A DNA stretch of 64,000 nt, taken from assembly GCA_014654705.1 (NCBI GenBank), contig JACVZY010000029.1:1-64000 (forward strand). Reading direction: 5' to 3'. The stretch comes from Ignavibacteria bacterium. GTDB taxonomy: Bacteria > Bacteroidota > Ignavibacteria > Kapaibacteriales > UBA4661. Positions 8,255-15,045 of this stretch are shown here, one piece after another. Numbering within the stretch: the first letter of the stretch is position 1; every line of letters starts with the position of its first letter. The translations under genes were made by a program, and so were the position numbers. Below the pieces are notes generated by a model. That model saw nothing but the letters and a program-made list of their open reading frames with translations. It was not told the origin of the DNA and ran no database searches.

Positions 8255-9190
8255 TTACGGGAAGAGCGCATAGACGTATTTGCGGAGATAGGCAGGCTTT
8301 GCCGGTGGCTTCTTTGCTGACCAGACTGTTGTCTCGATGACTTTTCCGGTGGCATCATAGGAGTGTACAAGTTTGGAGACGATAACATTTTTCGCCGTAT
8401 TTTCGGTTTCACTCGTGATGTTGCCGTTTGCGTCATAAGTGAAGACTTTTTTCGACTGCAATTTTGCCGATTTTTCGTCGAACTCCATGCCGCCAAAAAT
8501 TGCTATTTCCGTGAGATTGCCGTTTGCATCATACTTATACTCTTCTTTTTTCTCAATGCTGTCGTCAATGCGGAAGCGCATGAGCTTTGTAGCACGCTTC
8601 GTTGCGTCGTCGTAGGTGATTACATCACGGTAGCCGACTTTATCCTTAGCAATATAAAATTTCACTTCTGTCAAAACGCCGTCATTCGCCGTAAACAAAC
8701 CCTCACGGTACTTGAAGACTTGGCGCTGTGAGGAATTGCTCATCTGGCTTGAATAGACGGCTTCGGTCGTGCGACCTTTTTCGTCGTACTGATACTTCCA
8801 CGTAAAGCCGGGCGTATTGAACTCCATGAAATTCGTCGTTTCGGCAAGTTGATTTTTGTCGTTAAAGACAAATTCCTGCTTGGTATCTATCACATCTTTG
8901 TTGTAGCGTCCTTCCAGCGTTTTGTTACCATTTTTGTCATACCGAATGAGCATATCCATTCTGCCCTTTTTCTCCGGTTTGTTGCCCTTGAGCGCATATT
9001 CCCACACGATAACGCTATCAATTTTTTGCGCTTGAATTTTTTTGCGAGCACTTTCCAGTTTTTCCGGCGTTTGCGGGATTTGGGCGAAAGCGAAGATTGG
9101 CAAGAAAGCGAGTATCAGTGCGGCACAGACAAGAATGTCTGTGCTACGAAGGATGGTTGTGTCACGAAGAGTTTTTGTCTGCTTTTTCAT
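8255..9190 (-). CDS. Secreted YD/RHS-like repeat protein
   Basis: A 311-aa exported protein of unknown function. After an N-terminal signal (hydrophobic core AALILAFLPIFAFA) come short beta units of the type YDKNGNKTLEGRY, YDEKGRTTEAVY, YDANGNLTEIAIF, YDANGNITSETE and YDATGKVIETTVW. These resemble YD (RHS) repeats, which form beta-strand shells; the repeat number is too small for a full RHS toxin. The signal-peptide region contains a REP-like palindrome (9123-9144) that encodes TDILVCA, so a dispersed DNA element supplies coding sequence here. The start codon overlaps the stop of the WG-repeat gene by one base (TAATG), which points to coupled translation. A terminator follows. Confidence 0.75.
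   Translation of the reverse strand: MKKQTKTLRDTTILRSTDILVCAALILAFLPIFAFAQIPQTPEKLESARKKIQAQKIDSVIVWEYALKGNKPEKKGRMDMLIRYDKNGNKTLEGRYNKDVIDTKQEFVFNDKNQLAETTNFMEFNTPGFTWKYQYDEKGRTTEAVYSSQMSNSSQRQVFKYREGLFTANDGVLTEVKFYIAKDKVGYRDVITYDDATKRATKLMRFRIDDSIEKKEEYKYDANGNLTEIAIFGGMEFDEKSAKLQSKKVFTYDANGNITSETENTAKNVIVSKLVHSYDATGKVIETTVWSAKKPPAKPAYLRKYVYALFP
9123..9144. repeat. REP-like palindrome inside a coding sequence
   Basis: GCACAGACA (9123-9131), loop AGAA and TGTCTGTGC (9136-9144) form a perfect 9-bp stem. It matches the stem of the elements at 14951-15045. It is read in frame as part of the signal peptide of the YD-like protein. Confidence 0.8.
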
Positions 9191-10782
9191 TATTTTTTTT
9201 CCTTTCCTGTGAGGTCAATAATCATTGCTTTTCCGGCGAGTTTCACGTTTGTAAAGCCGCCTTTGAATGCCACATCAGCTTCATCGTACTGAGGCGTTAT
9301 GACTTCTGCGCCTGTTTTGTCCACATAGCCAAACTTTCCGCCAACCGCCACACGCGCCATTCCTTCCACGTGCGCGTCAGCTGCATCATATTTCGGCGCA
9401 ACAAGTTCTTTCCCGTCTGCAGACACGAAACCCCATTTATCGGCAAGTTTTGCTTGCGAAATATTATCAGCGAAAGTGCGAAGCGAATCGTATTTTGGTG
9501 CAATCACCTCTGCACCGTCTTTGTTCACCAAGCCCCATTTTCCTGCTGCTACCACACGCGCAATACCACTTTTCATCGTTTCGGTAGCATCATACTTCAG
9601 TGCAACTTTTTCCTTGCCGTCAGGTGCTAAAAAGCCCCATTTTCCGCCTATTTGAGCAAGTGCCACGCCTTCTGAGAATGCTTGAAGCGAATCATATTGC
9701 ACGGGAATCAGTTCTTTGCCCGTCATGTCCAGAAAGCCTGTTTTGCCGCCGCGTTTGGCTCGAAGAAGATTGTTCACTGGCTCTTCTACGGCGCTATATT
9801 CCACGCCCGCAGCCGTCCAGTAGGAAGTTTTACCCGCCAGCGTTGCCACAGCAACAACTTTTGCCATTTTCACATCGTCATATTTTGGCGCAAGAAACTC
9901 TTTGTATTCCTTGCCTGCGCCTTGCGGAGCGATTGCGCCAAATTTTCCCGCAGCCTTTACTTGAGCGCGACCGTCCACGGCAAACAAAATTGCATCATAC
10001 TTGCACGGGATAAGCAGATTTCCTTGCATATCGTAGAAGCCGACTTTTCCGGCATTTTTGACCTCGATACGCTCATTGGCGCTGAGTTTCACGGTTTCAT
10101 ATTCGGCAGGAACAAGCTGCTTGCCGGTAGCGGTGAACAAGCCCATTTTCGTACCCAATTTCGTCTCCGCATATCCTGTAGCACCAACGGAAAAGAACTT
10201 AACAGCATCGAATTTAGCAGGCACAATTTCCACACCTTTTTCGTCCAGATAGCCCATTTTACCGCCTTCGGTGATTTGCACACGACCGTTTTTCATCATC
10301 AGCACGGCATCATATTTCGGGGCAACAAGTTCTTTACCCTTTTCGTCAACGAAGCCCATTTTGCCGTTCAGTTTCACTTGAGCGCGTCCGTCTTGCGCCA
10401 TGATGATTTCATCGTATTTCGGAGCAACAAGCTCTTTGCCCTGTGCGTCCAAAATGCCCATTTTACCGCCCAATTTGACTTCATATTTGCCATTGCCGTA
10501 GAGGTCAATGTTATCGTATTTCGGAGCAGTTGCTTCTGTGCCGTCGGGCATCAAAATACCGTATTTGCCGCCGTCTTTGACTTTCAGCCATGCATTAGAA
10601 AAGACAATAATATCATCGTACTTAGCGGGAACAAGGATGACGTTGTCGCTCGCGCGAACAAGACCTTTTTTGCCATTTTTTTCAAATGTTGTGCCCTGTG
10701 CCAAAAGTTGGTCAACGGAGCACAAGCCACACCACACGAAAAGCGCACAAAAAAGCGCTTTACGCAATACACATTGCATCAT
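9190..10782 (-). CDS. Secreted WG-repeat (KWG) protein
   Basis: The 530-aa protein has a signal peptide (CALFVWCGLCSVDQLLAQ) and then some twelve to fourteen WG repeats of about 30-40 residues covering the whole mature chain. Each has the pattern GKxGxxDxxGKELVAPKYD, for example GKMGFVDEKGKELVAPKYD and GKWGFVSADGKELVAPKYD. WG repeats are beta-hairpin units found in many Bacteroidota and Leptospira envelope proteins; their ligands are mostly unknown. No enzymatic domain is fused. The repeats are well conserved with each other, which suggests recent expansion. It is the first gene of a pair with the YD-like gene (one-base overlap). A Bacteroidota-type promoter lies about 215 bases upstream (10998-11029). 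Confidence 0.88.
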   Translation of the reverse strand: MMQCVLRKALFCALFVWCGLCSVDQLLAQGTTFEKNGKKGLVRASDNVILVPAKYDDIIVFSNAWLKVKDGGKYGILMPDGTEATAPKYDNIDLYGNGKYEVKLGGKMGILDAQGKELVAPKYDEIIMAQDGRAQVKLNGKMGFVDEKGKELVAPKYDAVLMMKNGRVQITEGGKMGYLDEKGVEIVPAKFDAVKFFSVGATGYAETKLGTKMGLFTATGKQLVPAEYETVKLSANERIEVKNAGKVGFYDMQGNLLIPCKYDAILFAVDGRAQVKAAGKFGAIAPQGAGKEYKEFLAPKYDDVKMAKVVAVATLAGKTSYWTAAGVEYSAVEEPVNNLLRAKRGGKTGFLDMTGKELIPVQYDSLQAFSEGVALAQIGGKWGFLAPDGKEKVALKYDATETMKSGIARVVAAGKWGLVNKDGAEVIAPKYDSLRTFADNISQAKLADKWGFVSADGKELVAPKYDAADAHVEGMARVAVGGKFGYVDKTGAEVITPQYDEADVAFKGGFTNVKLAGKAMIIDLTGKEKK

Positions 10783-14950: not shown

Positions 14951-15045
14951 CGGTGGCACAGGCATTCTTGCCTGTGTAGTCCTCTCAGAGCGTGTCGCTT
15001 AGAAAACTGCTTCAAACCTCACAGACAGGAATGTCTGTACCACCG
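14951..15045. repeat. REP-like inverted doublet
   Basis: Two copies of one element face each other. The left copy (14951-14978) begins CGGTGG and has stem CACAGGCA/TGCCTGTG around TTCT. The right copy, read in reverse, also begins CGGTGG (CCACCG at 15040-15045) and has stem ACAGACA/TGTCTGT around GGAA. The two differ mainly at paired stem positions, as compensatory changes would give. The arrangement resembles BIME elements. Confidence 0.8.

Follow-up and report, generated by a model that had tools for sequence, protein, structure and literature searches.

How does a dispersed palindrome come to supply codons to the signal peptide of a predicted secreted protein? The question is raised by a locus in a 64,000-nucleotide stretch of an Ignavibacteria bacterium genome (contig JACVZY010000029.1; hereafter the window), where the initial annotation had reported a REP-like palindrome with a 9-bp stem and a 4-base loop at the N-terminus of an ORF, and a matching element near 14951-15045. 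Examination of the window recovers both: the perfect palindrome, GCACAGACA-AGAA-TGTCTGTGC, lies in frame within the ORF, and the matching element resolves into an inverted pair of copies (Table 1). Perfect stems of at least 8 bp enclosing loops of 3-8 bases occur at four places in the window, two of which belong to this REP family. Counted from the ATG, the in-frame reading of the element on the minus strand runs R15-S-T-D-I-L-V-C-A23. The annotation placed the element just ahead of the hydrophobic core, which needs correction in that ILVCA constitutes the first part of the core itself. The maximum hydropathy over 13 residues is 2.88 in the window's own genome (G000) and 2.86 in its sister genome (G001), both REP bearers, versus 1.81, 2.20 and 2.29 in G002, G006 and G007, a comparison that excludes G005, whose core lies beyond the scored segment; the higher peak of the two bearers results from ILVCA joining the core. 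The 33-bp stretch holding the REP was delimited by eye, since the signal-peptide sequence on either side has diverged, as signal peptides do rapidly.

Table 1. Positions in the window of the REP copies, the gene that carries one of them and adjoining features
Feature	Position	Strand	Basis or remark
Predicted secreted protein, 311 aa, RHS-type repeats	8255..9190	-	Pfam PF05593 over cut-off; secretion predicted from the N-terminus
Hydrophobic core ILVCAALILAFLPIFAFA, residues 19-36, first five residues REP-derived	9083..9136	-	Translation and hydropathy; limits by eye
33-bp REP-holding stretch (ILRSTDILVCA)	9122..9154	-	Start-region DNA of six genomes; nt +37 to +69
Perfect palindrome, 9-bp stems, 4-base loop	9123..9144		Predicted RNA hairpin, -14.2 kcal/mol
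REP copy, GTAG head and palindrome CACAGACATTCTTGTCTGTG	9124..9147	-	Family match
WG-repeat protein; stop overlaps start of REP-bearing gene (TAATG)	9190..10782	-	Pfam PF14903
Putative ribosome site GGAAAGGA upstream of ATG, same in six genomes	9200..9207	-	
REP copy, first arm of inverted pair	14953..14976	+	
REP copy, second arm of inverted pair	15020..15043	-	

Whether the palindrome might be absent from the rest of the genome, as the initial annotation had asked, is answered by its copy number. The 18-base core gives 105 matches with up to two mismatches in the 5.72-Mb genome and the GTRG-headed 24-mer gives 106 with up to three, with 0 for the reversed-pattern control in each case, numbers that are far beyond chance. 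The consensus, built from 101 copies with full flanks out of 102 collected, reads YTTCGGT[A/G]GC-ACAGACATTC[C/T]TGTCTGT-G and consists of a GT(A/G)G head followed by a 20-bp palindrome; the head positions are strongly conserved across the 101 aligned copies (G in 98, T in 96, A or G in 100, and G in 101). Many of the 18-base-core matches are paired in opposite orientation at a spacing of about 46 bp. REPs are generally presented as extragenic elements. Most copies of the present family are indeed extragenic and, together with the head, the high copy number and the close inverted pairs (BIME), this identifies them as GTAG-type REPs, which have been described as a head with a short palindrome, arranged in inverted dimers and located mostly behind ORFs (Di Nocera, De Gregorio, Rocco 2013, PMC3733652). 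With a GTGG head the element is open in all six reading frames, and with a GTAG head in five of six, so that many insertions can be read through. Among 107 distinct copies in DNA fetched from the genome, 24 fall in ORFs of at least 120 aa; judged by eye, 14 of these are intragenic, one is unsure and nine lie before a likelier start or in a doubtful ORF. The 14 are spread over seven genes. A DEAD-type helicase ORF of 1305 aa (L115:1883-5797) holds five of them in frame, recG three, and the gene of an OmpA-like protein, whose Pfam OmpA match stays below cut-off, two; the genes of a predicted lipoprotein, the window protein, an AMP-binding enzyme and a DUF2279 protein make up the rest.

Comparison with relatives bears directly on the claim that the palindrome lengthened the signal region. 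In all six genus genomes compared, the window's own included, the ATG at 9190 or its equivalent overlaps the WG-repeat stop codon, TAA, and GGAAAGGA precedes it unchanged. Orthologs in G020 and G009 are too distant at the start region, and only the start-stop gap of the latter, a member of another genus of the same family, was used: it is 83 bp, with no REP. Within the genus the REP is present in G000 and G001 and absent from G002, G006 and G007. From the start to the mature protein G001 exceeds the REP-free G002 by 33 bp (11 codons), and G000 is longer by a further 18 bp directly before the REP. Given this upstream start and orthologs both with and without the element, the view that the palindrome supplied codons to the signal peptide stands. 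The G001 copy differs by a single change, which lies in the loop and leaves the stem intact. The 18 bp by which G000 exceeds G001 (9155-9175; CTTCGTGACACAACCATC) resemble the left flank of the REP and are perhaps a partial tandem copy, and in G005 (L036) another repeat-like sequence occupies the signal-peptide place of the ortholog. A further suggestion of the initial annotation, that the hairpin acts near the start codon, fares less well: the palindrome begins only at nt +47, and the start region has a predicted openness of 0.60, or 0.73 once the element is removed by script, against 0.43-0.98 in the other five genomes. As this measure fails to single out the REP-bearing genomes, we reject a start-codon hairpin as a translation switch.

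The window gene is not the sole case, since signal-peptide REPs are found in three of the seven genes with intragenic copies. The search for further TDILVCA-containing ORFs that the initial annotation had advised recovers, in the same genome, the lipoprotein MKTRILQIKTSRSTDILVCAAILITLAPFFQSC, which contains an identical RSTDILVCA; the OmpA-like protein carries a REP pair in its signal peptide. The lipoprotein has a match in 7 of 10 genomes searched, among which G007 shows a REP of opposite orientation in this signal peptide and five lack one. In the OmpA-like gene the pair is common to G000 and G001, pairs in other frames occur in G005 and G006, and G002, G003 and G004 have none. Orthologs of both genes probably gained their REPs separately. 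The OmpA-like gene of G007 (L207) shows a long in-frame REP array of well over 100 residues before the hydrophobic core. All three signal-peptide REP genes of the window's genome begin on the stop codon of the gene before them; as REPs prefer the space just behind ORFs (PMC3733652), such an overlap turns that very space into a signal peptide. A general preference of REPs for signal peptides is unsupported: among 78 copies in 40 regions of G006 taken in list order none was judged clearly intragenic, and we reject that idea on this sample. Although 47 of those 78 lie in mechanically called ORFs of at least 100 aa, the sample indicates that coding copies are a minority.

A candidate for the enzyme behind these copies is found in the same genome. 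The IS200/RAYT-type transposase domain (PF01797) has one match there, over cut-off and in frame inside recG, in a 997-codon open frame (L031:16-2814; C10:38683-41478 of the genome). The insert lies between the RecG motifs DEQH and SATPIPRT (helicase motifs II and III), replaces residues 513-519 of the solved RecG structure 1gm5 and retains the RAYT motifs DHVH (HUH), WQD and YIIENP, the last of the YIxxNP type. REPs surround it in inverted orientation, with one on the left in sense and two on the right in antisense. It is not a separate gene with a start of its own: it reads in frame with recG and, with Met as the only start considered, none lies within 30 aa before its core. The same arrangement is seen in G006 and, over two contigs, in G007, with a short loop at the site in G001, G002, G003, G004, G008 and G009; another repeat-like sequence is seen at the RecG loop of G005 (L076). 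Between G000 and G001 the RecG flanks of the site have dN/dS values of 0.042 (left) and 0.008 (right), and RecG on both sides of the insert is thus under purifying selection. The embedded RAYTs of G000, G006 and G007 are 48-54% identical, as against 83-92% for the right part of RecG; with RAYT identity so far below that of the host, they may stem from one old insertion or from repeated insertions. Synonymous sites of the RAYT parts are saturated, and the one estimable pair gives a dN/dS of 0.165. The RecG-RAYT is present in the REP-rich G000, G006 and G007 and absent from the REP-poor G002, G003 and G004; G005 (741 REP matches) and G001 (224) are REP-rich with no RAYT in recG. In G005 the RAYT protein query found no match, and PF01797 matches two other places. 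The RecG-embedded RAYT, the only RAYT-type protein found in the genome, is most likely the enzyme that copied the signal-peptide REP, and its protein would be made and working.

In light of the repeat family, its frame, the conserved start, the orthologs with and without the element, the open RecG-RAYT frame and the selection on RecG, we propose the following account, to which we give a probability of roughly 0.8. The RAYT would recognize the GT(A/G)G-headed hairpin as a single strand, as is known for the E. coli RAYT (PMC3733652), and place copies mostly behind ORFs. One such copy would have inserted directly after the WG-repeat stop codon, where REPs typically settle, and fallen into the signal peptide because the next gene starts on that stop (TAATG). 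It would have survived because the element is open in that frame, leaves the frame intact and encodes TDILVCA, which is compatible with a hydrophobic core and here joins it. Of the mobile, dispersed palindrome that the initial annotation envisaged, the dispersal is a matter of observation; mobility is what the GT(A/G)G head, the inverted pairs, the REPs of this family on both sides of a RAYT and the presence and absence among relatives point to, and export of the protein presumably persists. Alternatively, the REP might be kept for a role in RNA or DNA, either shielding the WG-gene mRNA at its 3' end or adjusting translational coupling, with the peptide merely tolerated. All three signal-peptide REPs do follow an upstream stop at a distance of tens of bases, the predicted hairpin is strong (-14.2 kcal/mol), and the one G001 change spares the stem; however, the orthologs in G002, G006 and G007 dispense with the REP, and the start-region openness sits inside the range of the other genomes. 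Such a role, which would be compatible with the proposed account, strikes us as rather unlikely, though tenable.

Embedded RAYTs are also encountered beyond the genus. A scan of genome contigs gave 28 loci related to the RecG RAYT, 10 of them in open frames of more than 300 aa running through other proteins. Pfam searches on nine of the ten (all but L170) show clear hosts: leucyl-tRNA synthetase (LeuRS), Hsp70, the exonuclease VII large subunit (two), MetH (two) and an Eco57I-type methylase; two methylase-like hosts (L187, L188) are below the Pfam cut-off. The LeuRS-RAYT (L186) is from a cultured strain, Luteolibacter pohnpeiensis KCTC 22041, which has no other LeuRS above the TIGR00396 cut-off; its insert lies at residues 365-376 of 1h3n, in a loop of the editing domain. 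A RAYT occupies the same LeuRS site in 6 of 30 genomes searched around this species, itself included; L186 and L232-L243 are the loci for this loop, with and without RAYT. Of six RAYT-free LeuRS loops read, one (L240) holds a perfect inverted REP pair, two (L238, L239) have possible traces and three (L241-L243) look empty; we rejected L238 and L239 as REP remnants, finding no palindrome of at least 6 in them. Among the matches listed for the same 30 genomes, 34 of 90 RAYT-only matches are in frames of more than 400 aa. Twenty of the 34 were fetched and 14 scanned with Pfam, giving as hosts MetH (4), IspG/GcpE (3), CarB (2), TPR proteins (2), alanyl-tRNA synthetase (AlaRS; 1), adenosine deaminase (1) and an Eco57I methylase (1); PF01797 was found in 13 of the 14, the AlaRS case being the other. 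One of the three IspG cases is in the L. pohnpeiensis genome, which thus has RAYTs inside both IspG and LeuRS (L263, L186). In 395 genomes of the window's phylum, the RAYT query gave 10 matches in frames of more than 400 aa among the matches listed, with RecG, HsdR and methylases as hosts (by Pfam or by eye). As a control, the IS66 TnpB gave 0 of 30 matches in frames of more than 200 aa in those 395 genomes, a set that is not matched to the 30 Luteolibacter relatives of the 34-of-90 count. Y1_Tnp-like segments also lie inside Eco57I/MmeI-type methylases of G001 (L222) and G027 (L223), the G001 frame ending within the segment.

Within 30 residues ahead of the RAYT core, a Met occurs in 7 of 27 embedded entries (7 of 26 distinct genes, as L244, one of the four MetH cases, is the same gene as L194) versus 12 of 14 free-standing ones (Fisher p = 0.0007), where the entries were those at hand, hence non-random, and one of 15 free-standing entries given had no anchor. 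The HUH motif is present in 26 of the 27 entries. The RecG and LeuRS inserts sit in length-variable loops (1gm5 513|519, 1h3n 365|376) and not in a conserved active-site motif as inteins do, and no splicing families appeared in the Pfam tables of the RAYT hosts. Just as in-frame REP copies would survive at tolerant protein sites, such as signal-peptide n-regions and length-variable loops, RAYTs with their REPs could land at such sites too and become domains of the host enzyme. With odds only a little better than even, we propose a protein-embedded mode of RAYT life, in which the RAYT, together with REPs, lies in frame in variable loops of RecG, LeuRS, AlaRS, MetH, CarB, IspG, Hsp70, exonuclease VII and DNA methylases, has mostly lost its own start and would be produced as one domain among those of its host. 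The embedded RAYTs could instead be dead remnants or meaningless assembly joins, as might be suspected from four XseA/MetH cases (L191, L192, L194, L195) that lack the NP of YIxxNP, a TPR case with no recognized HUH motif, the G001 methylase frame that stops inside its insert, and the draft or metagenome-bin status of most of the genomes. Against this stand the recurrence of the same RecG site in three genus genomes and of the same LeuRS site in six genomes, including the only LeuRS over cut-off of a cultured strain, the near-universal HUH motif, and RecG dN/dS values far below 1. We consider decay or misassembly improbable.

The remaining alternatives concern the window gene. Di Nocera et al. 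suspected many N-terminal REPs to be untranslated (PMC3733652), and the initial annotation had likewise raised a start downstream of the element. Consistent with such a reading, nine of the 24 ORF copies in this genome were placed before likelier starts or in doubtful ORFs, and one TTG lies in mid-core. The overlapping ATG and GGAAAGGA are, however, conserved in all six genus genomes, the remainder of the signal peptide, counted from the element onward, contains no in-frame ATG or GTG, and a later start would lose the positive n-region; given the conserved start-stop overlap we reject a downstream start, whose likelihood is very small. A chance palindrome outside the dispersed family has next to no likelihood and is rejected, as both head and palindrome match the consensus of a high-copy family with a reversed-pattern control of 0 in 5.7 Mb. 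The REP-like palindrome in the signal peptide is confirmed as an observation, and a REP that fell into an overlapping gene remains our preferred reading.

Palindromes in frame in protein genes are also familiar from the Rickettsia palindromic elements. RPE-4 and RPE-6 of that group carry a CGTC tag (PMC3733652), whereas the present family has a GT(A/G)G head and is accompanied by a RAYT. With the GTAG-type REPs, as described in the same source, it shares the GTAG head, palindrome, inverted dimers and a mostly extragenic location with some copies in frame; intragenic REPs, including those in N-termini and in DNA-repair genes, are likewise in print there (PMC3733652). What differs here is an N-terminal case with a conserved start and orthologs with and without the element, its recurrence in three signal peptides, and the start-stop overlap. 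With the RAYT/REPtron systems, as presented by Nunvar et al. 2010 (PMC2817692), Corneloup et al. 2021 (PMC8266576) and Quentin et al. 2018 (PMC6006769), the RecG insert shares an IS200-like HUH-Y1 protein and inverted REPs, and it is single copy; unlike the RAYTs of those accounts, it and its counterparts are not genes of their own but are read as domains of RecG and other enzymes, and most lack a Met close to their start. A few unexpectedly long Y1 proteins were ascribed to gene fusions or annotation errors and discarded (Quentin et al. 2018, PMC6006769). Intragenic REPs are already known, and long RAYT fusions have been noted and discarded in one paper; in the titles, abstract openings and searched passages of the open-licence literature, no description of RAYTs embedded in housekeeping enzymes was found. 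Inteins (PMC4853749) and IStrons (PMC4227781) likewise represent mobile elements in important genes that do not kill the gene, but the Pfam tables give no hint of splicing for the present inserts, which occupy length-variable loops and stay in frame.

Together these observations show a dispersed REP family entering the export signals of three genes, as seen through close relatives, with a simple rule that predicts the place: the REP inserts after a stop codon on which the following gene already begins. The presence of RAYTs in RecG, LeuRS, MetH, CarB, IspG and others bears on the open question of why single-copy RAYTs behave like housekeeping genes and not like transposons (PMC8266576). For a transposase that has become a domain of an essential enzyme, loss by frameshift would be harmful, an idea that is testable in cultured strains. 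If RAYTs do live embedded in this way, any nonsense mutation or frameshift within them would also inactivate the host enzyme, and this would go some way toward accounting for the long persistence of single-copy RAYTs; RAYT-spread REPs such as the signal-peptide copy in the window would represent the same trick on a small scale.
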